DNA from: a virus
Virus record (IMG/VR): IMGVR_UViG_3300042549_006377
Location: 1-24,500 of that record
Length of the DNA: 24,500 nt
Reading direction: 5' to 3' (one strand)
This document shows, piece after piece, positions 8,688 through 23,391 of this stretch. Under the pieces are notes generated by a model that was not told where the DNA came from, did not search any database, and was given only the letters and a program-made list of their open reading frames with translations. Positions within the stretch are counted from its first letter, which is position 1, and every line of letters begins with the position of its first letter. The position numbers were made by a program, and so were the translations under genes.

Positions 8688-8701
8688 TCGATAAAATTTA
8701 G

Positions 8702-8774
8702 TTGCGGGAGTTGGATTCGAACCAACGACTCAGAGCTTATGAGGCTCCGCTGCTGACCACTGCATTATCCCGCA
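8702..8774 (-). tRNA. tRNA-Met (anticodon CAT)
   Basis: Folded by hand: acceptor TGCGGGA/TCCCGCA (7 bp), D arm around AGTGGTCA, anticodon stem GGAGC/GCTCT with loop CTCATAA, variable GAGTC, T arm GTTGG-TTCGAAT-CCAAC, discriminator A. No CCA is encoded. A first T-A pair suggests an elongator rather than initiator tRNA. CAT could also be an Ile tRNA after C34 modification. Confidence 0.88.
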
Positions 8775-11342: not shown

Positions 11343-11544
11343 AACGTTTAATCACAAACCAATAAAATCTATGTTTAGCGATTGCTAAATGAGTTAACCC
11401 CCATCTATAAGGTTTACCTTCCCATATATTGCTTTTGTTCTTTACATAATCTAAATCAGATTTGTATTGGTGATAAGCTAATTTAACTGCCGATAACAGC
11501 GTATTAGCGTTATTGCCTTGTTCTTTTACTTCAAATTTTTCCAT
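11341..11544 (-). CDS. Hypothetical cassette protein, 67 aa
   Basis: Residues 10-19 (GNNANTLLSAV) are encoded by the inner arm of the attC-like site upstream, as in the 72-aa gene at 124. The rest (AYHQYKSDLDYVK, IWEGKPYRWGLTHLAIAKHR, FYWFVIKR) is aromatic and basic, without a known motif. The stop overlaps the next attC-like box (CGTTAATTGCCGCTAAC). Confidence 0.6.
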   Translation of the reverse strand: MEKFEVKEQGNNANTLLSAVKLAYHQYKSDLDYVKNKSNIWEGKPYRWGLTHLAIAKHRFYWFVIKR

Positions 11545-11620
11545 ATATTTTAAATTTATTTTTTCAATTTGAAATTCGTGTTAGCACCAACGCCAATACG
11601 CAAAACGTTAGCGGCAACTG
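11484..11620 (-). repeat. attC-like imperfect palindrome
   Basis: On the minus strand CTAACG, then GTATTGGCGTT, and about 75 nt later AACGCTAATAC and TGTTATCGGC. The inner arms are complementary at 10 of 11 positions. The start codon of the 67-aa gene is between the arms. Confidence 0.6.
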
Positions 11621-12027
11621 CTACCAACACGTTCAAAATGAAATTTCCCATCCCATAAAGTGTGCTTAATTGAACCCATATTCATAGCCACTTGCATTTT
11701 AGTTTTGCTTTTGAATAAGTATTCCAATTTCTCATTTAGCATCTTGTGGAGTTGCTTTCTATATCCTTCCAAATCTGTATGGCATTTGTAATTGTTGCAA
11801 TCCTTACAGCTTGGATTCAGGTTTTCCAAATCATTTGTTCCACCAAAAATCTGTGGTTTAATATGGTCAACATTCCATCCTTTAGCCAAATCAACGCCAC
11901 AATAAGCACACTTTCCACCGCACTTGTCAAATACTATTGCTCGAATTTTAGCTTTCGATAACTTAACCGCAGCAGCCGATAACACGGGTTTTGCGTCATT
12001 GGGGGCTGATGTGCTTCTATTAAACAT
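11608..12027 (-). CDS. HNH endonuclease
   Basis: 139 aa. Classical HNH fold with zinc cysteines: CGGKCAYCGVDL (CxxC), GWNVDHIKPQIFGGTNDLEN (DH and N of the catalytic core), then NPSCKDCNNYKCHTDLEGYR (second CxxC). It cuts DNA with a metal ion. As a free-standing cassette gene it could be a homing-type or restriction-like nuclease; the target is unknown. The N-terminus (NDAKPVLSAAA) is encoded by the attC-like arm, and the C-terminus (GSSCR) runs into the next attC-like box. Confidence 0.88.
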   Translation of the reverse strand: MFNRSTSAPNDAKPVLSAAAVKLSKAKIRAIVFDKCGGKCAYCGVDLAKGWNVDHIKPQIFGGTNDLENLNPSCKDCNNYKCHTDLEGYRKQLHKMLNEKLEYLFKSKTKMQVAMNMGSIKHTLWDGKFHFERVGSSCR

Positions 12028-14705: not shown

Positions 14706-14738
14706 AAAAAAAACCGGCAAATGCTGCCGGTTCGGGGG
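14706..14738 (-). terminator. Terminator/attenuator carrying the GYTCGGGGG motif
   Basis: Just after the stop of the DnaA-like gene the minus strand reads TCCCCCG, then AACCGGCA, loop GCATT, TGCCGGTT and TTTTTT. The perfect 8-bp stem with T-run is a textbook rho-independent terminator. The last T is immediately followed by the ATG of the next gene, leaving no room for a separate promoter or leader, so it probably tunes rather than stops expression of the integrase pair. Confidence 0.8.
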
Positions 14739-15661: not shown

Positions 15662-15681
15662 GTTGTTTAGGTTTGTTTTAG

Positions 15682-15751
15682 CGACCAATGCCGGAATCGA
15701 ACCGGCAACTACCTGATACAATCAGGCGCTTTCCCATTAAGCTAAGTGATC
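15682..15751 (-). tRNA. tRNA-Thr-like (anticodon TGT)
   Basis: Acceptor GATCACT/ATTGGTC (one wobble, one C-T mismatch), D arm GCTT-AATGGGA-AAGC, anticodon stem GCCTG/CAGGT with loop ATTGTAT, T arm GCCGG-TTCGATT-CCGGC, discriminator G. One base shorter than normal between the D and anticodon arms. Probably functional or slightly decayed. Its T arm equals that of the tRNA-like gene at 8780. Confidence 0.65.
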
Positions 15752-15977: not shown

Positions 15978-16022
15978 AATATGTGTTTTTTACGAATTTA
16001 CTAATAATTGTTTTTAAAAGGC

Positions 16023-16050
16023 AAAAAAGAGAGGCAGCCTAAGCCACCTC
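16023..16050 (-). terminator. Terminator/attenuator before the 69-aa gene
   Basis: Minus strand GAGGTGGC, loop TTAG, GCTGCCTC (8 pairs, two wobble), then TCTTTTTT. It lies between structured leader 16070-16108 and the start of the 69-aa gene, 46 nt before the ATG. Confidence 0.75.
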
Positions 16051-16069
16051 CCTAACCTCAACAACTTGT

Positions 16070-16108
16070 TACTAGTTGCGATTGAACGCCACGGCTTGAC
16101 CGCTAGTA
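16070..16108 (-). ncRNA. Structured leader, type I, copy 1
   Basis: Minus strand: outer stem TACTAG/CTAGTA; hairpin CGG-TCAAG-CCG; hairpin GCG-TTCAAT-CGC: a three-way junction. The core CGGTCAAGCCGTGGCGTTCAA is shared with the other copies while the stem bases differ and stay paired. It follows the stop at 16116 and precedes a terminator, not a start-associated string as in the other copies. Confidence 0.7.
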
Positions 16109-16115
16109 TAGAACT

Positions 16116-16304
16116 TTATATAAGTCCTAAGTCAGACTGCCTGAAAAGTGATCTTAACTTGCAGTCGTTCATGTATTCCTTTACATCAATATTAAGTTCC
16201 CTTAAAATGATTAAAGTTCTACTGTGGTTTGATGGTTTAATGAATCTTCTTATAATTCGTCCATCAGGTTTAGCGGATACTACCGCTTTTGTTTTTTTGC
16301 GCAT
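16116..16304 (-). CDS. Hypothetical basic protein, 62 aa
   Basis: The start at 16304 (MRKKTKAVVSAKPDGRIIRR) is preferred to one at 16352, which lies inside the structured element 16330-16383. The protein is strongly basic, with a possible nucleic-acid-binding N-terminus. No family recognised. Spacing between two structured elements supports it. Confidence 0.55.
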   Translation of the reverse strand: MRKKTKAVVSAKPDGRIIRRFIKPSNHSRTLIILRELNIDVKEYMNDCKLRSLFRQSDLGLI

Positions 16305-16329
16305 GAGGCTTGATTTGAAGATTAAAAAA

Positions 16330-16383
16330 GAAACTGCATGTGTATCGCTCACAATAACTTCTAAAAAGTTTGCAGTTCGGGGG
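16330..16383 (-). ncRNA. Structured leader, type II, copy 1 (with GYTCGGGGG motif)
   Basis: Directly after the stop of the 23-aa ORF the minus strand reads TCCCCCG, then outer stem GAACTGCA/TGCAGTTTC, inner hairpin AACTT-TTTAG-AAGTT, inner hairpin TGTG-AGCGATA-CACA, followed by CTTTTTT. The same architecture with different stem bases occurs at 18682-18733. The T-run makes it terminator-like. Confidence 0.65.
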
Positions 16384-16384
16384 A

Positions 16385-16456
16385 CTAAATGTTATCAGCT
16401 AGTGTACATAGTAACAAGACTAAGACAATAGCAATAACTTTAAGGGCGTTTTTCAT
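16385..16456 (-). CDS. Tiny membrane peptide, 23 aa
   Basis: MKNALKVIAIVLVLLLCTL followed by four residues: a basic start and one hydrophobic segment, possibly a one-span membrane peptide or truncated lipoprotein (CTLAD). It uses the slot between a 73-aa gene and a type II element. Too short to be sure it is translated. Confidence 0.45.
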   Translation of the reverse strand: MKNALKVIAIVLVLLLCTLADNI

Positions 16457-16517
16457 AGTGTAGTATTTTATACCCGATAGGGCATTATTAATAAGGTTTA
16501 AGGGGAAACTGTACCCG

Positions 16518-16739
16518 TTAAGGTACGTTGAGCATAGCTTCAATAGCCCAATGATGAAGCGTATCCCATGTAATGCCAATACTTGCATCATGGCTAGATA
16601 TCATTTTTTCTAGCGCCCATTTAGCCTGATTCTCGCTTAATCCCCAATCGGCAAAGTCGTTTATTGACCATTTAACCGATTCTTTTTTGTACTGTTCAAA
16701 TTCAGCTAGTAGCTGTTCGTACTTTTGTTTGTAATCCAT
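16518..16739 (-). CDS. Hypothetical protein, 73 aa
   Basis: Preceded by the start-associated string (CAAAACCTCAAAAAATG) and structured leader copy 16760-16798. N-terminal coiled coil (YKQKYEQLLAEFEQYKKESV), then an HTH-like helical part (WGLSENQAKWALEKMISSHD). No family recognised. Confidence 0.7.
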   Translation of the reverse strand: MDYKQKYEQLLAEFEQYKKESVKWSINDFADWGLSENQAKWALEKMISSHDASIGITWDTLHHWAIEAMLNVP

Positions 16740-16798
16740 TTTTTGAGGTTTTGATGAGTGCCTATTTACAATTGAATGTTACGGCTAAACCGATAGGC
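16740..16798 (-). ncRNA. Structured leader, type I, copy 2, with start-associated string
   Basis: Minus strand: outer stem GCCTAT/ATAGGC; hairpin CGG-TTTAG-CCG; hairpin ACA-TTCAAT-TGT; then CACTCATCAAAACCTCAAAAA up to the ATG at 16739. Confidence 0.75.
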
Positions 16799-16805
16799 GA
16801 AATGA

Positions 16806-16982
16806 TTAATATAAATACTCGATAGCTTCTCCTAGAGTATAAATATCATCCAAAGTATAAGGACAAGGCGAATATTCACATTGCGGGTAATTCTCAATAG
16901 CCTTACCTATATTATTTGTATGTACAATACATAGGGGTTCATTTTGATGATATGGCACAATGTAATAATAATTTTTTTTCAT
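16806..16982 (-). CDS. Hypothetical protein, 58 aa
   Basis: ORF with start-associated string directly before the ATG at 16982 (ACCTCAAAAACATG). It opens MKKNYYYIVPYHQNEPLCIV and is rich in Tyr and Cys (YPQCEYSPCPY), ending EAIEYLY. No family recognised. Confidence 0.65.
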   Translation of the reverse strand: MKKNYYYIVPYHQNEPLCIVHTNNIGKAIENYPQCEYSPCPYTLDDIYTLGEAIEYLY

Positions 16983-17041
16983 GTTTTTGAGGTTTAATGA
17001 GAGCCTATTTGTAATTGAATACCACGGCTAAACCGTCAGGA
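16983..17041 (-). ncRNA. Structured leader, type I, copy 3, weakest outer stem
   Basis: Core CGGTTTAGCCGTGGTATTCAA conserved; inner hairpins CGG..CCG and GTA-TTCAAT-TAC; the outer stem is only CCT/AGG. The start-associated string ACCTCAAAAAC precedes the ATG at 16982. Confidence 0.65.
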
Positions 17042-17048
17042 AGTTTTG

Positions 17049-17156
17049 CTATTCAAATATAGCGTTAAATTCTACATCAGTGTCAGGCTCCTTAAGTGCA
17101 TCATTTGCGATTAATACAGAAATAAAGATAGCGCCTAAAATAATAAAAAATGTCAT
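17049..17156 (-). CDS. Tiny membrane or secreted peptide, 35 aa
   Basis: From ATG at 17156: MTFFIILGAIFISVLIANDA then an acidic tail (LKEPDTDVEFNAIFE). One N-terminal hydrophobic span with acidic exterior. The start-associated string ACCTCAAAAACATG is present although no three-way leader lies in the 21-nt gap to the upstream stop. Confidence 0.55.
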   Translation of the reverse strand: MTFFIILGAIFISVLIANDALKEPDTDVEFNAIFE

Positions 17157-17177
17157 GTTTTTGAGGTTTTTTAAGGT

Positions 17178-17375
17178 TTAAAATAAAATTCCGTTTTTAT
17201 CTAGCTTATTTGCTAGTTCTAACTTTTCAGGATCGTTTTTTATGGCTCTCATTCTGAAAAACATCATTTTATCTATTACAAATGTGCTTTCTTCTTTTGG
17301 GATACCATATAATCTAACATGCTCTATTAATTCAAGCACGTTTTTCTTAAAGGTTGACTTTTCTTTTGTAGTCAT
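17178..17375 (-). CDS. Hypothetical protein, 65 aa
   Basis: Basic helical protein (KSTFKKNVLELIEHVRLY, EESTFVIDKMMFFRMRAIKN). Start-associated string at the ATG (17375). No family recognised. Confidence 0.7.
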   Translation of the reverse strand: MTTKEKSTFKKNVLELIEHVRLYGIPKEESTFVIDKMMFFRMRAIKNDPEKLELANKLDKNGILF

Positions 17376-17435
17376 GTTTTTGAGGTTTAATAAGAGCCTA
17401 TTCGTAATTGAATACCACGGCTAAACCGATAGGCT
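17376..17435 (-). ncRNA. Structured leader, type I, copy 4
   Basis: Outer stem AGCCTAT/ATAGGCT (7 bp), hairpins CGG-TTTAG-CCG and GTA-TTCAAT-TAC, then CTTATTAAACCTCAAAAAC to the ATG. Confidence 0.78.
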
Positions 17436-17441
17436 AGTTAA

Positions 17442-17726
17442 CTAAATTTTAATCCACGAACCGTCCCACTTTTGCCCGTTTAAATACCATTCGCCCTTTT
17501 TTTGGCAGATACTTACATTAGGGATAGCGTTCAAGCGCTCTTTTGTAGTGTTAGTTTGCCATCCCGCATTAGAGATAAAAATACCTTCGCTGTTTTTTTT
17601 GGCGATTAAATTGTTGTGTAGTCTTAATTCTACACAGTCGGGATAAATACGAACAGTAGTGTTATCCTTAACAAAATTTTGACTGTTCAAAAAAGCGCTA
17701 ACCGCTTGTTGTGTAATTTGTTTCAT
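17442..17726 (-). CDS. Hypothetical protein, 94 aa
   Basis: Start chosen at 17726 (MKQITQQAVSAFLNSQNF) because the start-associated string ends there; an upstream in-frame ATG lies inside the structured leader. Beta-rich segment TTVRIYPDCVELRLHNNLIA, then KERLNAIPNVSICQKKGEWY and LNGQKWDGSWIKI, a small beta protein. Bacteroidetes phages often carry such 90-100 aa proteins of unknown role. Confidence 0.72.
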   Translation of the reverse strand: MKQITQQAVSAFLNSQNFVKDNTTVRIYPDCVELRLHNNLIAKKNSEGIFISNAGWQTNTTKERLNAIPNVSICQKKGEWYLNGQKWDGSWIKI

Positions 17727-17784
17727 GTTTTGAGGTTTGTTGAGCTCCCATTTGCGATCGAACGCCACGGCTTAACCGACGGGA
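17727..17784 (-). ncRNA. Structured leader, type I, copy 5
   Basis: Outer stem TCCC/GGGA, hairpins CGG-TTAAG-CCG and GCG-TTCGAT-CGC. Stems differ from copies 2-4 but remain paired. Start-associated string AAACCTCAAAACATG follows. Confidence 0.75.
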
Positions 17785-17791
17785 AAGGGGA

Positions 17792-18142
17792 TTATACGAT
17801 AGGCGAAGGGATAATTTCAAATACTCTTAAGCAAATATTATTAGTGTATAAGGTTTTTTTACCTTGTTTCCATTGCTCAATTTCTGCTTCGGTAGCTTCT
17901 GAATTATTACCGTCTACCAAATTTGAATAACGCAATTCATTTGAATTTTCTTCGTCAATCCCACAATGATCAAAATTAAAAGAAAAGTACAATTCCTTTT
18001 CAAAATAGAGCTCAATTGCTTTTTTTACATTTTCAGCTTCTATTTTAGCTTCCTGAGTCCAACCGTTTACATGGCCTAATTCACCCTGATCATAACTATC
18101 TACATAAACATCATGGATAGTTTTAATTAAAAAATACTTCAT
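17792..18142 (-). CDS. Hypothetical acidic protein, 116 aa
   Basis: Starts MKYFLIKTIHDVYVDSYDQG. The arrangement YFLIKTIHDVYVD, then EAKIEAENVKKAIELYFEKE and LRYSNLVDG suggests an alpha/beta domain. Start-associated string at the ATG. No family recognised. Confidence 0.72.
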   Translation of the reverse strand: MKYFLIKTIHDVYVDSYDQGELGHVNGWTQEAKIEAENVKKAIELYFEKELYFSFNFDHCGIDEENSNELRYSNLVDGNNSEATEAEIEQWKQGKKTLYTNNICLRVFEIIPSPIV

Positions 18143-18203
18143 GTTTTTGAGGTTTTAATGAGAGACTATTCACAATTGAATGTCACGGCTGAACCGATAG
18201 TCT
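18143..18203 (-). ncRNA. Structured leader, type I, copy 6
   Basis: Outer stem AGACTAT/ATAGTCT, hairpins CGG-TTCAG-CCG and ACA-TTCAAT-TGT, then ACCTCAAAAAC. Nearly identical to copy 7, pointing to a recent duplication. Confidence 0.78.
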
Positions 18204-18208
18204 ATTTT

Positions 18209-18463
18209 TTACAAATTACCACTAGCTTCTTTTAAAGAATGATAATCGTAATTTTCGTTTTGATAAAGATCATCAAGTAAACTTTCTTTTAAGTAAAAGC
18301 GTTCTACATTAGAATCACCAAAATAGCAATAAAGTACAAAGTCATGTAAAGTAGGGAAGCATATGGCTTCGCCATCCTTTATATGTACATGTATAGCTTT
18401 AAAGCTATTAGACCTAATTTCATAGCTAGAATCCGCACCTTTTAGGCTTTCGTTATGTAACAT
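18209..18463 (-). CDS. Hypothetical protein, 84 aa
   Basis: Starts MLHNESLKGADSSYEIRSNS at the start-associated string. The mid part FKAIHVHIKDGEAICFPTLH and FVLYCYFGDS is beta-rich and aromatic. No family recognised. Confidence 0.7.
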   Translation of the reverse strand: MLHNESLKGADSSYEIRSNSFKAIHVHIKDGEAICFPTLHDFVLYCYFGDSNVERFYLKESLLDDLYQNENYDYHSLKEASGNL

Positions 18464-18524
18464 GTTTTTGAGGTTTTAATGAGAGACTATTCACAATTGA
18501 ATGTCACGGCTGAACCGATAGTCT
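18464..18524 (-). ncRNA. Structured leader, type I, copy 7
   Basis: The same fold and nearly the same bases as copy 6 (AGACTAT/ATAGTCT outer stem), lying between the 43-aa ORF and the 84-aa gene. Confidence 0.78.
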
Positions 18525-18529
18525 ATTTT

Positions 18530-18661
18530 TTAGCATCCTAGCCCGTCACAACTGCAATTTCCATCACATTCAATATGAAGCGGCATATTGCAATAATGTT
18601 TATTATAATCAATTGGCAAATTTATTAGCAATATTGCTAATATTAAAAGTAATTTTTTCAT
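18530..18661 (-). CDS. Small secreted Cys-rich peptide, 43 aa
   Basis: Start chosen at 18661, where the start-associated string ends; the longer reading would pass through the type II leader. MKKLLLILAILLINLPID is a signal-like segment, and the mature part has five cysteines within 20 residues (NMPLHIECDGNCSCDGLGC plus an upstream Cys). Possibly exported. Function unknown. Confidence 0.65.
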   Translation of the reverse strand: MKKLLLILAILLINLPIDYNKHYCNMPLHIECDGNCSCDGLGC

Positions 18662-18733
18662 GTTTTTGAGGTTTTGTTGAGGAACTGCCCGTGTATTGAT
18701 CACGTTAACATCTACATGTTGGCAGCTCGGGGG
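18662..18733 (-). ncRNA. Structured leader, type II, copy 2 (with GYTCGGGGG motif)
   Basis: Minus strand: stop, TCCCCC, outer stem GAGCTGCC/GGCAGTTC (8 pairs), inner hairpins AACAT-GTAG-ATGTT and CGTG-ATCAATA-CACG, then CCTCAACAAAACCTCAAAAAC to the ATG of the Cys-rich peptide. It combines the type II fold with the start-associated string of type I. Confidence 0.7.
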
Positions 18734-18734
18734 A

Positions 18735-19052
18735 TTAATAGTTAATAAAGTACTCTTCATTATAAGAGTACCTTTCGCCTACATAAGAGGGATTATAAAC
18801 AAGATAACCAACTTCATTAACCTTTATGGCTATCGCATCCTGCTCTAAGGTAACACATAAACGCTCTACCATAATAGTAATGTCCGACAATTCCCAATTT
18901 TCAGTTATTTTACTAACTACTGTGGGTTCAACTGCTTCGCCCCATTGGCTTTGGCCTAGTCTACTCTCAGCTAAAAACATTAAGTTTAATATTCTGCTGC
19001 ATTGCTCAAATGAGTACGGGTTATTATTTAGCCCAATGTTTAGTTGTATCAT
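18735..19052 (-). CDS. Hypothetical protein, 105 aa
   Basis: Starts MIQLNIGLNNNPYSFEQCSR at 19052, directly after CCTCAAAACAAA. Segments LNLMFLAESRLGQSQWGEAV, ITIMVERLCVTLEQDAIAIK and VGYLVYNPSYVGERY suggest an alpha/beta fold. It resembles small phage proteins that pair a helical N-terminus with a Gly-Tyr-rich end, but I cannot name a family. The stop is followed at once by the GYTCGGGGG motif (as TCCCCCGAGC). Confidence 0.72.
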   Translation of the reverse strand: MIQLNIGLNNNPYSFEQCSRILNLMFLAESRLGQSQWGEAVEPTVVSKITENWELSDITIMVERLCVTLEQDAIAIKVNEVGYLVYNPSYVGERYSYNEEYFINY

Positions 19053-19114
19053 TTTGTTTTGAGGTTTAATGAGAGCCTATTTACAATTGAATGTCACGGC
19101 TTAACCGATGGGCT
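19053..19114 (-). ncRNA. Structured leader, type I, copy 8
   Basis: Outer stem AGCCCAT/ATAGGCT (one mismatch), hairpins CGG-TTAAG-CCG and ACA-TTCAAT-TGT, then CATTAAACCTCAAAACAAA to the ATG at 19052. Confidence 0.75.
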
Positions 19115-19119
19115 AGTAG

Positions 19120-19302
19120 TCAAAAACTATTGTCTATTGAATTGTCAACTAAATCGCTAAATACTGAAAAACTAGTAATAATTGGCTCATACTCTAGTTT
19201 ATAATTAGGATCTAAAACACTAACTGAACTTTTTATTTCGTCCGTTTTTTTAGCCTTATTAATATTATCATAATAAGCTTTTTTCTGTTCTAAATAAGTC
19301 AT
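19120..19302 (-). CDS. Hypothetical protein, 60 aa
   Basis: Start at 19302 (MTYLEQKKAYYDNINKAKKT), preceded by a start-associated string (AAACCTCAAAAC). Basic start, acidic end (VFSDLVDNSIDNSF). First gene of the small-ORF run, so probably closest to the promoter. No family recognised. Confidence 0.65.
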   Translation of the reverse strand: MTYLEQKKAYYDNINKAKKTDEIKSSVSVLDPNYKLEYEPIITSFSVFSDLVDNSIDNSF

Positions 19303-19984
19303 TTTTTTGTTTTGAGGTTTCACCGTTCTGCGGATCATCAGTATAGACAATATATCTATATACCTCTACGACCTTATTAGCCTCGTGACTACGCCTATAT
19401 TAAAGTGAATATATCGAAATTAATAGCGAAAGGAAGACTACTAATTAACACATGTAAGGGGTAAGACGGGTAAACTATTGTTTATTTGTGGGTTGCAGTC
19501 GTGTAGGATGCAGTGCCGTTGTCCGTGCTTAACGGCGATGTACCGTGTCGCATGTGTAACTTTCGTGCCAATATTTCAGAGAACTTGAAAACGATTCGTT
19601 AACCGTTAACAATGCAAACATACGCCCAATGTGAATATCAAACCAAATTTATTTTTAAAAAATGCCAATTAAAGTTTTGTTAAAAGCCGAAAATGCAATA
19701 CAGTATTGAATTGTAGCCAAATGTTAAAGTTTTGTTAACGCTAATAAATGTGAATATAAATACTAGAAAACAATCAAAGTTTGACGGCTCGGGGGACTAA
19801 TAGTGTAAAGGGATATATAAGACCAAATAAACAGTAAAATAGGCGCAAAACAATATAAATAAGCGCAAATAACGATTAAAGCAGAATAAACGCATTCAGG
19901 TACGAATAAAAACCGTATAAACGATTCTGACAGCCTTTAAATGTTAAAATAGTGTTAAGTTTAGTTAAAGAAATGTTAAACGGG
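19303..19984. other. Non-coding control region upstream of the small-ORF run
   Basis: No convincing ORF in about 680 bp. It holds: a GC-richer block (19490-19570) with hairpin GCCGTT (19515-19520)/AACGGC (19531-19536); three copies of a GTGAATAT motif (near 19406, 19631, 19751); several GTTAA repeats (CCGTTAACAATG, AAAGTTTTGTTAA twice, GTTAAGTTTAGTTAAAG); a possible leftward -7 box TAAATTTG at 19644-19651 with no well-spaced partner; a GYTCGGGGG copy (19787-19795); and one half of a direct repeat (19905-19930). It looks like a long leader or operator region. Confidence 0.5.
19905..19930 (+). repeat. Direct repeat, left copy
   Basis: AATAAAAACCGTATAA, then (A/T)CGATTCT, is repeated at 20743-20768; similarity continues weakly for some 8 bases (CAGCCTT versus GCGCCTT). 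The copies flank the small regulator gene and the purine-rich repeats, 838 bp apart. Possible replication or operator repeat. Confidence 0.65.
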
Positions 19985-22623: not shown

Positions 22624-23391
22624 ATGCAAGAATTAATTAAAGTAAAAAACACAGAGTTAAAAAAGACTGAAAATCAGTTTATCCATGAAGTATTTGGTAA
22701 TTTAACAACAATCACCAATGAATTAAACGAGGTATTTTTTGTATCTAATGAGGTATCATCTATTTTAGATTATTCAGAAAATAGAAAAATGTTAGAAAGG
22801 CTAGATGATGATGAAATTGTTAAATTATCATACGAAGAAACCAAACGGCTTTCACCGACGGTTGACATTCATTCATCAGGAATACAACTTCTAACAGAAT
22901 CAGGACTTTATTCAGCTGTTTTAGGCAGTAGAAAACTAGAAGCTAAACAATTTAAAAAGTGGGTTACAAGTGAAGTTTTACCATCAATTAGAAAAAATGG
23001 TATCTATGCTACAGAAGTTACGGTGGACAAAATGTTAAATGACCCGGATTTTGCTATTGCTCTTTTAACAAGCTTAAAGAACGAGAAGAAATTAAGACAA
23101 GAAGAGGAATCTAAAAACGCTATTTTAATGCATGTAAACAAAACCTACACTACGACTGAAATAGCAAAAGAAATTGGAATGACATCGGGTAACCAATTGA
23201 ATAATATACTATGTAGCTTAAGAGTTCAATATAAGCAAAATAAAACCTACGTCCTTTATTCTAATTATGCAGGAAATGGTTATGACGATATTAAGCAGGA
23301 GGTGTTAGATAGCGGTCATGTAATTTATCACAGGAAATGGACTCAGTTAGGTAGAGCGTTTATTTTAAATTTACTTAGCAAAAAACAATAA
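22624..23391 (+). CDS. Phage antirepressor (BRO-N plus KilAC)
   Basis: 255 aa. Residues about 18-125 form a BRO-N domain: FGNLTTITNELNEVFFVSNE, VSSILDYSENRKMLERLDDD, LLTESGLYSAVLGSRKLEAK, QFKKWVTSEVLPSIRKNG, the last being the family signature. Residues about 170-250 are a KilAC domain: MHVNKTYTTTEIAKEIGMTS, NQLNNILCSLRVQYKQNKTY, HVIYHRKWTQLGRAFILNLL. Antirepressors of this type counter the phage repressor and favour lytic growth. The gene has its own promoter and structured leader. Confidence 0.92.
   Translation: MQELIKVKNTELKKTENQFIHEVFGNLTTITNELNEVFFVSNEVSSILDYSENRKMLERLDDDEIVKLSYEETKRLSPTVDIHSSGIQLLTESGLYSAVLGSRKLEAKQFKKWVTSEVLPSIRKNGIYATEVTVDKMLNDPDFAIALLTSLKNEKKLRQEEESKNAILMHVNKTYTTTEIAKEIGMTSGNQLNNILCSLRVQYKQNKTYVLYSNYAGNGYDDIKQEVLDSGHVIYHRKWTQLGRAFILNLLSKKQ

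Follow-up and report, generated by a model that had tools for sequence, protein, structure and literature searches.

Background

Structured RNA at gene boundaries can affect the processing or translation of messenger RNA, and examples are the repetitive extragenic palindromic (REP) sequences near stop codons and the intercistronic RNase III sites of phage T7. REPs are chromosomal hairpins and RNase III sites require longer duplexes, which sets both apart from the phage element described here. This element is an RNA three-way junction of approximately 41 nt, and eight copies of it lie in an operon of tiny genes (minus strand, approximately 19300 down to 16116) of the IMG/VR virus record IMGVR_UViG_3300042549_006377. 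The analysed stretch of that record, 24,500 bases long, is referred to as the window.

In mitochondrial tRNA punctuation, structured RNAs lie between the cistrons of a long transcript and are cut by RNase P and RNase Z (PMC8601606), as is proposed here. Those RNAs are true tRNAs, whereas the phage element is a 41 nt fold with no anticodon arm, and its cleavage is conjectural. In a tRNA the T-loop lies 12 bp from the 5' end, a distance that is measured by RNase P (PMC11143913). The enzyme also cuts hairpins composed of acceptor and T-arm, and its substrates include the phage C4 and M3 RNAs, the T4 gene 32 mRNA and riboswitches (PMC11143913). The D-loop is apparently dispensable but the T-loop is required (PMC4919913; for substrate biology see also PMC4919922). 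The model substrates, C4 and M3 resemble the phage element in phage origin and, as its fold is read here, in the acceptor/T-arm shape and in a T-loop approximately 12 layers from the 5' end. They differ in that the phage element has no RCCA and possesses a 6 nt loop and a three-way junction (PMC11143913). The tRNA-like domain of transfer-messenger RNA (tmRNA) is likewise the upper half of a tRNA with no anticodon arm, although tmRNA as a whole is long, becomes charged and serves to tag proteins (PMC3985003).

Two described systems combine repeated elements with small phage genes. In cluster K mycobacteriophages, 13-bp start-associated sequences (SAS) are tied to start codons, and the extended form (ESAS) adds 17-bp inverted repeats (PMC3203893). 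These elements are repeated, half have inverted repeats, and they stand next to many small genes. The element described here differs in a narrower spacing to the stop codon, in covarying stems and in carriers with little protein overlap. The promoter early stem-loops (PeSLs) of T4-like phages are conserved intergenic elements linked to the shuffling of small genes (as cited in PMC4503421). They are described as promoter-terminator motifs, whereas the present element is followed by no U-run and its operon has no excess of sigma-70 sites, a consensus that may not be that of the host.

Here we describe the structure, genomic position and distribution of an RNA family that is secure as such. At least 62 other records of IMG/VR carry it, one weak case not counted, and it offers a way to study how long operons of tiny unknown genes are run by phages. 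Its possible role as a tRNA mimic is weighed against five other explanations.

Results

A covarying three-way junction

The element folds into a variable outer stem, a short hairpin and a third hairpin (hairpin 3) with the loop UUCRAU. The eight copies of the original prediction, which gave no strand, are all found and all lie on the minus strand (Table 1). The core pattern CGGTYNAGCCGTRRYRTTCRAT occurs eight times in the window and not once in 100 dinucleotide-preserving shuffles. Every copy shares the pattern, but the exact letters proposed for the core vary (CGGTC in element 8, TAACA in element 7). The paired changes that had been noted are real. The outer stem reads TACTAG/CTAGTA in element 8, GCCTAT/ATAGGC in elements 5 and 7, TCCCGT/ATGGGA in element 4 and AGACTAT/ATAGTCT in elements 2 and 3, whose identity extends over 72 nt, and hairpin 3 changes as ACA/TGT, GTA/TAC and GCG/CGC. 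Element 1 has a C.A mismatch in the outer stem and in element 6 the stem is broken.

In an alignment of 65 sequences 92.5% of the cells pair, and covariation is 0.731 compared with 0.170 (sd 0.014) in shuffled and at most 0.132 in slid alignments, controls that ignore kinship. Changes on both sides occur in all seven outer pairs, in all three pairs of hairpin 3 and in the third pair of the short hairpin. The remaining three short-hairpin pairs are invariant in this alignment, in which most rows were selected by that very sequence. Among copies outside the search patterns the second pair changes as well (CAC/GTG in L260, L305 and L307), and U.G becomes C-G in L260 and L307. A hand-chosen set of one row per record (27 rows, 27 records) gave 91.2% pairing and a covariation of 0.736 compared with 0.170 when shuffled, and in this set, too, every pair of the outer stem and of hairpin 3 varies on both sides. 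Loss of covariation on alignment of more copies had been named as the outcome that would speak against a conserved fold; the covariation persists and the fold is strongly supported. Of the 73 aligned copies, 70 have UUCRAU as the hairpin-3 loop, one has GUCAAU and two are out of register, a count biased by the search patterns and the model.

The earlier wording left a choice between RNA and single-stranded DNA. Without pair 1-41, which forms in about half of the rows, there are 17 G.T to 4 A.C (p 0.007); with this pair the figures are 24 to 14 (p 0.14). Both counts exclude the short hairpin's fourth pair, which is U.G in 65/65. An element that acts as RNA of the gene strand rather than as DNA is favoured.

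Position at gene boundaries

Context was counted for 91 copies in 87 distinct contexts, with L032, L034, L206 and L078 set aside, the last because it lies in the L015 contig. In 58 of the 87 an upstream open frame ends in a stop codon 3-11 nt ahead of the outer stem, compared with 3.6% of 4,350 random positions, and the spacing is exactly 5 or 6 nt in 36. Counted once per locus the figure is 34/59, and in the one-per-record alignment 16/27. The next ATG (frame of at least 35 codons) follows within 1-110 nt in 84/87 contexts, at distances that vary widely. Both neighbours are co-directional in 70 contexts by crude gene calls, and in the other 17 one or both are opposite or missing.

As predicted, seven of the window copies lie between a stop codon and the next ATG. 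The exception is element 8, which has an intrinsic terminator approximately 15 nt downstream (16053-16028), no gene between itself and that terminator, and the next ATG 91 nt away. The resemblance to cluster K phages drawn in the original prediction is half right. The elements do recur beside small genes, but the spacing is narrow to the upstream stop and wide to the start, and element 8 departs further in having no gene before its terminator. The 13-bp SAS GGGATAGGAGCCC, with up to 3 mismatches, is at chance level in the window (2 matches, 2.04 expected, neither in the operon).

The 3' flank has the consensus C(U/A)A and lacks the U-run of an intrinsic terminator, and a terminator scan was empty at all eight elements; the operon has one minus-strand terminator and none at elements 1-7. 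A scan with the sigma-70 consensus, which need not apply to this host, found 13 sites compared with 14.3 in shuffles. Stimulation of readthrough is not a general explanation because an in-frame stop precedes the end of the element in 33/59 contexts; the next start falls in frames 0, 1 and 2 in 22, 16 and 14 cases (n=52).

By eye, a second small hairpin lies within a few bases downstream of the element in L260, L307, L262, L014, L017 and L029. In the last three its stem changes as pairs around the loop AGCCRA.

Related sequences in the operon

The start-associated string AACCTCAAAA occurs ten times in the window (0.11 expected). The copies at 17159 and 19310 stand before genes that have no preceding element, and the string is all that the gaps before 17156 and 19302 contain. 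Two other gaps of the operon (18682-18728 and 16331-16378) hold a second type of three-way junction, different in sequence from the element. A search for this type elsewhere gave 16 stretches, which fold this way only in L010, a near relative of the window phage.

The string CCCCCGARCYG recurs on the minus strand at 14738, 16383, 18733, 19795 and 20362. It directly follows a stop codon at the first three and perhaps at 19795, and it opens a terminator-like hairpin at 14738 and a second-type junction at two sites. In L128, L129 and one L305 copy CCCCC precedes a GAACT outer stem on the core of the main element, and L166 combines this core with the outer stem of the second type, GAACTGCA/TGCAGTTC.

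Distribution of the family

Copies outside the window were found by pattern scans of IMG/VR and accepted by stem pairing. The first scan gave 35 stretches, of which 25 were accepted (10 already found before), 9 were rejected and one, L051 (22.9 bits), was retained as weak. A second scan (109 stretches) added 13, and a later one (at least 120 stretches) added 21 contigs among the matches listed. Relaxing the first pair of the short hairpin gave 42 stretches and no new accepted copy. A search with the protein of gene 17442-17723, in which the element was not used, retrieved ten loci in other records besides L010; the element is present at three (L204-L206), where CGC/GCG replaces CGG/CCG in the short hairpin, and absent at seven.

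Most records have one strong match, but there are six in L010 and in G436, four in G437 and in G438 and three in G439. Whole-record model scans found the element in 24/24, 13/13 and 24/24 records, as expected since each record had been chosen for a copy. In the divergent copies L011:1965 and L078 the short hairpin is altered; L101 and L115 were rejected. An identical 41 nt element stands in two different phage records (L009 3785-3825 and L018 6001-6041).

Rfam 15 at the gathering threshold recovered two tRNAs only from the whole window, and at E up to 10 it gave five weak matches over 16000-19500, none over a copy of the element. The true tRNA genes (Met, 8701-8774; Thr, 15681-15751, minus strand) lie between co-directional open reading frames (ORFs) of the same strand, and therefore genuine tRNAs also stand at gene boundaries here.

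A strict-pattern search of a bacterial genome collection gave no credible copy. Four hits were rejected, having at most 4 outer pairs and 2/3 hairpin-3 pairs, and two of these score 25.1 and 22.4 bits through the core. A model search of 395 Bacteroidia genomes (the class to which a Prevotellaceae genome belongs), run with filtering under which weak matches are lost, also gave none; of three rejected matches two are antisense inside a sigma-factor-like ORF and one lies inside a chromosomal ORF. Among named phages, blastn with two single elements, a weak test, returned 11 rows, all at E 0.6 or worse. Achromobacter phage Axy13 (H2, H7) and Klebsiella phage KLB16 (H4) were left out of the model check, and H1, H3, H8 and H11 fall in the same phages as the places checked. 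Those places (H5, H6, H9 and H10, as L317-L320) were rejected, three with no model match and L319 with a chance-level partial one (9.1 bits, E 3.6).

A literature search, with most subscription papers outside its reach, found no description of the element. A survey of human-microbiome RNAs lists 3,161 candidates in its supplements (PMC8040213), and because they sit in supplementary lists an earlier unlabelled sighting is possible. We take the element to be a new RNA family on the absence of the window copies from Rfam and on these limited literature, phage and genome searches.

Phage diversity and cassette exchange

The proteins of 38 sets (2,427 proteins) were compared, covering 25 records partly or wholly, 12 loci and the window; L274 and L305 are one record counted as two loci. 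No family occurs in more than 9 of the 38 sets, partly covered records included, which rules out a shared phage protein as a general explanation. Probably, therefore, the RNA either needs no partner or is read by something that hosts have universally. Linking sets by at least three common families gives 21 groups, by two families 13 and by one family 3.

L010 lacks two cassettes of the window, gene 19120-19302 with element 1 and gene 18209-18463 with one of the two identical elements. A different ORF replaces 16806-16982, and the switch to it lies within element 6, towards its 3' end, on one side and at the 5' edge of element 7 on the other. The L010 copy of element 6 pairs, unlike that of the window. 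Gain, loss and swap of cassettes ending at the element, as for the PeSLs, are thus seen with this one relative. Because the differences end in or at elements, the elements appear to act as recombination seams, at least between the window phage and L010.

Discussion

The topology of the element matches that of a tRNA minus the anticodon arm. The outer stem would correspond to the acceptor stem, the D and anticodon arms would give way to the short variable hairpin, and the T arm would be the UUCRAU hairpin, with its loop 11-12 layers from the stem base, near the 12 of tRNA. It is a tentative possibility that the element mimics a tRNA in minimal form and separates cistrons by being read by RNase P or other tRNA-processing enzymes of the host. 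The universal enzymes of tRNA ends in the host (RNase P first, perhaps RNase Z) would recognise the shape and cut at the stem base, and the cistrons of the long phage transcript would be separated as in mitochondrial tRNA punctuation. The spacing to the stop codon would be explained because such a cut would fall just after the stop, and the lack of a shared phage protein fits because no phage factor would be needed. The conserved core might double as a homology seam for the gain, loss and swap of gene-plus-element cassettes. Somewhat more doubtful is the full proposal that phages of different lineages share the 41 nt mimic as punctuation, with RNase P, perhaps together with RNase Z, cutting after stops, and also use it as a gene-swap seam. 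Here we infer the cleavage, the enzyme and the benefit to the phage.

Measured on the 3' strand, T-loop and stem base are 11 or 12 nt apart in 74 of the 85 copies that could be fitted. Among the 74, 59 have a plain outer stem of 6 or 7 plus 2 plus 3, and lengths trade off in a few others (outer/J31/hairpin 3 of 6/1/4 in 4 copies and 9/0/3 in 2; by eye 8/0/4, a sum of 12, in the second-type elements). The short hairpin, at the place of the D and anticodon arms, is replaceable among copies. Position -1 is U or C in 55/73. A number of points weigh against a tRNA mimic. The distance fit has no null, its scoring took a 2-nt J31 as best, and two of the 87 copies are unfitted. ARAGORN and the tRNA model do not recognise the window elements as tRNA. 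The loop of hairpin 3 has 6 nt rather than the 7 of tRNA, and it is closed by a pair other than the G-C found in tRNA. The U19-A34 pair needed for a T stem of 5 layers does not covary (U-A 51, U-G 4, other 10; n=65), and position 20-33 is a non-standard pair in 61/65. The 3' flank is C in 59/73, then U in 46 or A in 18, with no RCCA of the kind that is paired by bacterial RNase P. In 16/87 contexts no upstream stop lies within 60 nt, and at 24/59 loci no copy has a stop at 3-11 nt. In L014, L017, L029, L045, L242 and L031 the element comes, by eye, after a terminator-like hairpin, and in several phages another hairpin lies 3' of it. The strand preference also shrinks once pair 1-41 is counted.

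We hold a tRNA mimic and an uncut structural insulator level, and the insulator is equally tentative. REP hairpins near stop codons are said to stabilise and insulate cistrons. A compact fold just beyond the stopped ribosome could block exonucleases and sliding or re-initiating ribosomes, leaving each tiny cistron stable and independently translated. The commonest spacing of 5-6 nt would bring the stem close to where a ribosome halted at the stop codon ends, going by the usual footprint, the element is found at most boundaries of the window operon and also before the terminator, and a phage factor would be unnecessary. A plain hairpin would suffice for this purpose, however, and the conservation of the UUCRAU loop and of the UG junction while the stems are free is left unexplained; some copies also come after terminator-like hairpins. 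Conserved loop sequences on a three-way junction are what a regulatory RNA would show, whether its partner is a ligand or an RNA or protein acting in trans (riboswitch-like, a translational operator, or a tRNA-elbow binder acting via the loops), and a start codon lies within 120 nt in 84/87 contexts. This explanation is rather unlikely, given that no expression platform is obvious by eye, that the short hairpin and its loop are replaceable, and that no protein family exceeds 9/38 sets.

The remaining alternatives are less probable. The put sites of phage HK022 are antitermination RNA that binds RNA polymerase, and copies acting likewise could keep the long operon transcribed through terminators; element 8 stands directly before a terminator with a gene beyond. 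We find this unlikely at best. At the six loci where the element directly follows a terminator-like hairpin it could not act on that hairpin, being 3' of it, eight copies per operon look redundant, and the stop-codon spacing is left unexplained. A DNA element with no RNA role (promoter, recombination site or single-stranded DNA fold) would account for cassettes that end in or at elements and for the identical 41 letters in L009 and L018. The excess of G.T over A.C, the co-directional neighbours, the frequent position after stop codons and the operon's ordinary number of sigma-70-like sites make it very unlikely. Improbable to a similar or slightly greater degree is a self-cleaving ribozyme between cistrons, which would suit a three-way junction of approximately 41 nt in intercistronic position for which no common protein factor was found. 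No Rfam family, ribozymes included, matches a window element, and the conserved unpaired bases lie mainly in a hairpin loop.

Should the element prove to mimic a tRNA and be cut by RNase P, phages would have a first tRNA-punctuation system, as far as is known and within the literature searched, and the element would be a portable part for splitting transcripts. If the mimic fails, it would still be a new boundary element of mRNA.

Other features of the window

Table 1. Elements, junctions, terminator and genes of the tiny-gene operon, listed by kind
Feature	Position	Strand	Remarks
Element 1, three-way-junction RNA	19074..19114	-	core 19086-19107; model score 62.6 bits
Element 2	18484..18524	-	core 18496-18517; 59.6 bits; same sequence as element 3
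Element 3	18163..18203	-	core 18175-18196; 59.6 bits
Element 4	17745..17785	-	core 17757-17778; 59.2 bits
Element 5	17395..17435	-	core 17407-17428; 61.8 bits
Element 6	17002..17042	-	core 17014-17035; 51.9 bits; apparently chimeric; outer stem CCTGA/ATAGG unpaired, L010 counterpart CCTGA/TCAGG
Element 7	16759..16799	-	core 16771-16792; 60.7 bits
Element 8	16069..16109	-	core 16081-16102; 58.9 bits; 3' of last gene, 5' of terminator
Second-type three-way junction	18682..18728	-	outer stem GAGCTGCC/GGCAGTTC, loop AUCAAUA; ends by eye; also in L010
Second-type three-way junction	16331..16378	-	hairpin AACTT/AAGTT (L010: AACAT/ATGTT); ends by eye
Intrinsic terminator	16028..16053	-	downstream of element 8
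Tiny gene	19120..19302	-	start by eye; cassette with element 1, absent from L010
Gene, 105 aa	18735..19052	-	no family match found
Tiny Cys-rich gene	18530..18661	-	start by eye
Gene, 84 aa	18209..18463	-	missing from L010 along with one element copy
Gene, 116 aa	17792..18142	-	no family match found
Gene	17442..17723	-	phrog_554 / PF23790
Gene, 65 aa	17178..17375	-	no family match found
Tiny ORF	17049..17156	-	no element in front
Gene, 58 aa	16806..16982	-	different ORF at this place in L010
Gene, 73 aa	16518..16739	-	phrog_10258
Tiny hydrophobic ORF	16385..16456	-	start by eye
Last gene	16116..16304	-	precedes element 8; start by eye

The primase-helicase of the window has matches in 1,429 records of named phages. 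At 33-34% identity, two unannotated faecal phages, vB_RanS_PJN03, a Tenacibaculum phage and Flavobacterium phages match best, which makes a Bacteroidota host likely. The integrase and the tiny-gene operon share one strand, and an antirepressor-type gene (phrog_130, 22624-23391, plus strand) lies on the other. The window also contains further interspersed repeats, 76-85% alike and unrelated to the element, which link 378-411 with 11584-11617 and 281-313 with 11483-11515 and 11969-12001.

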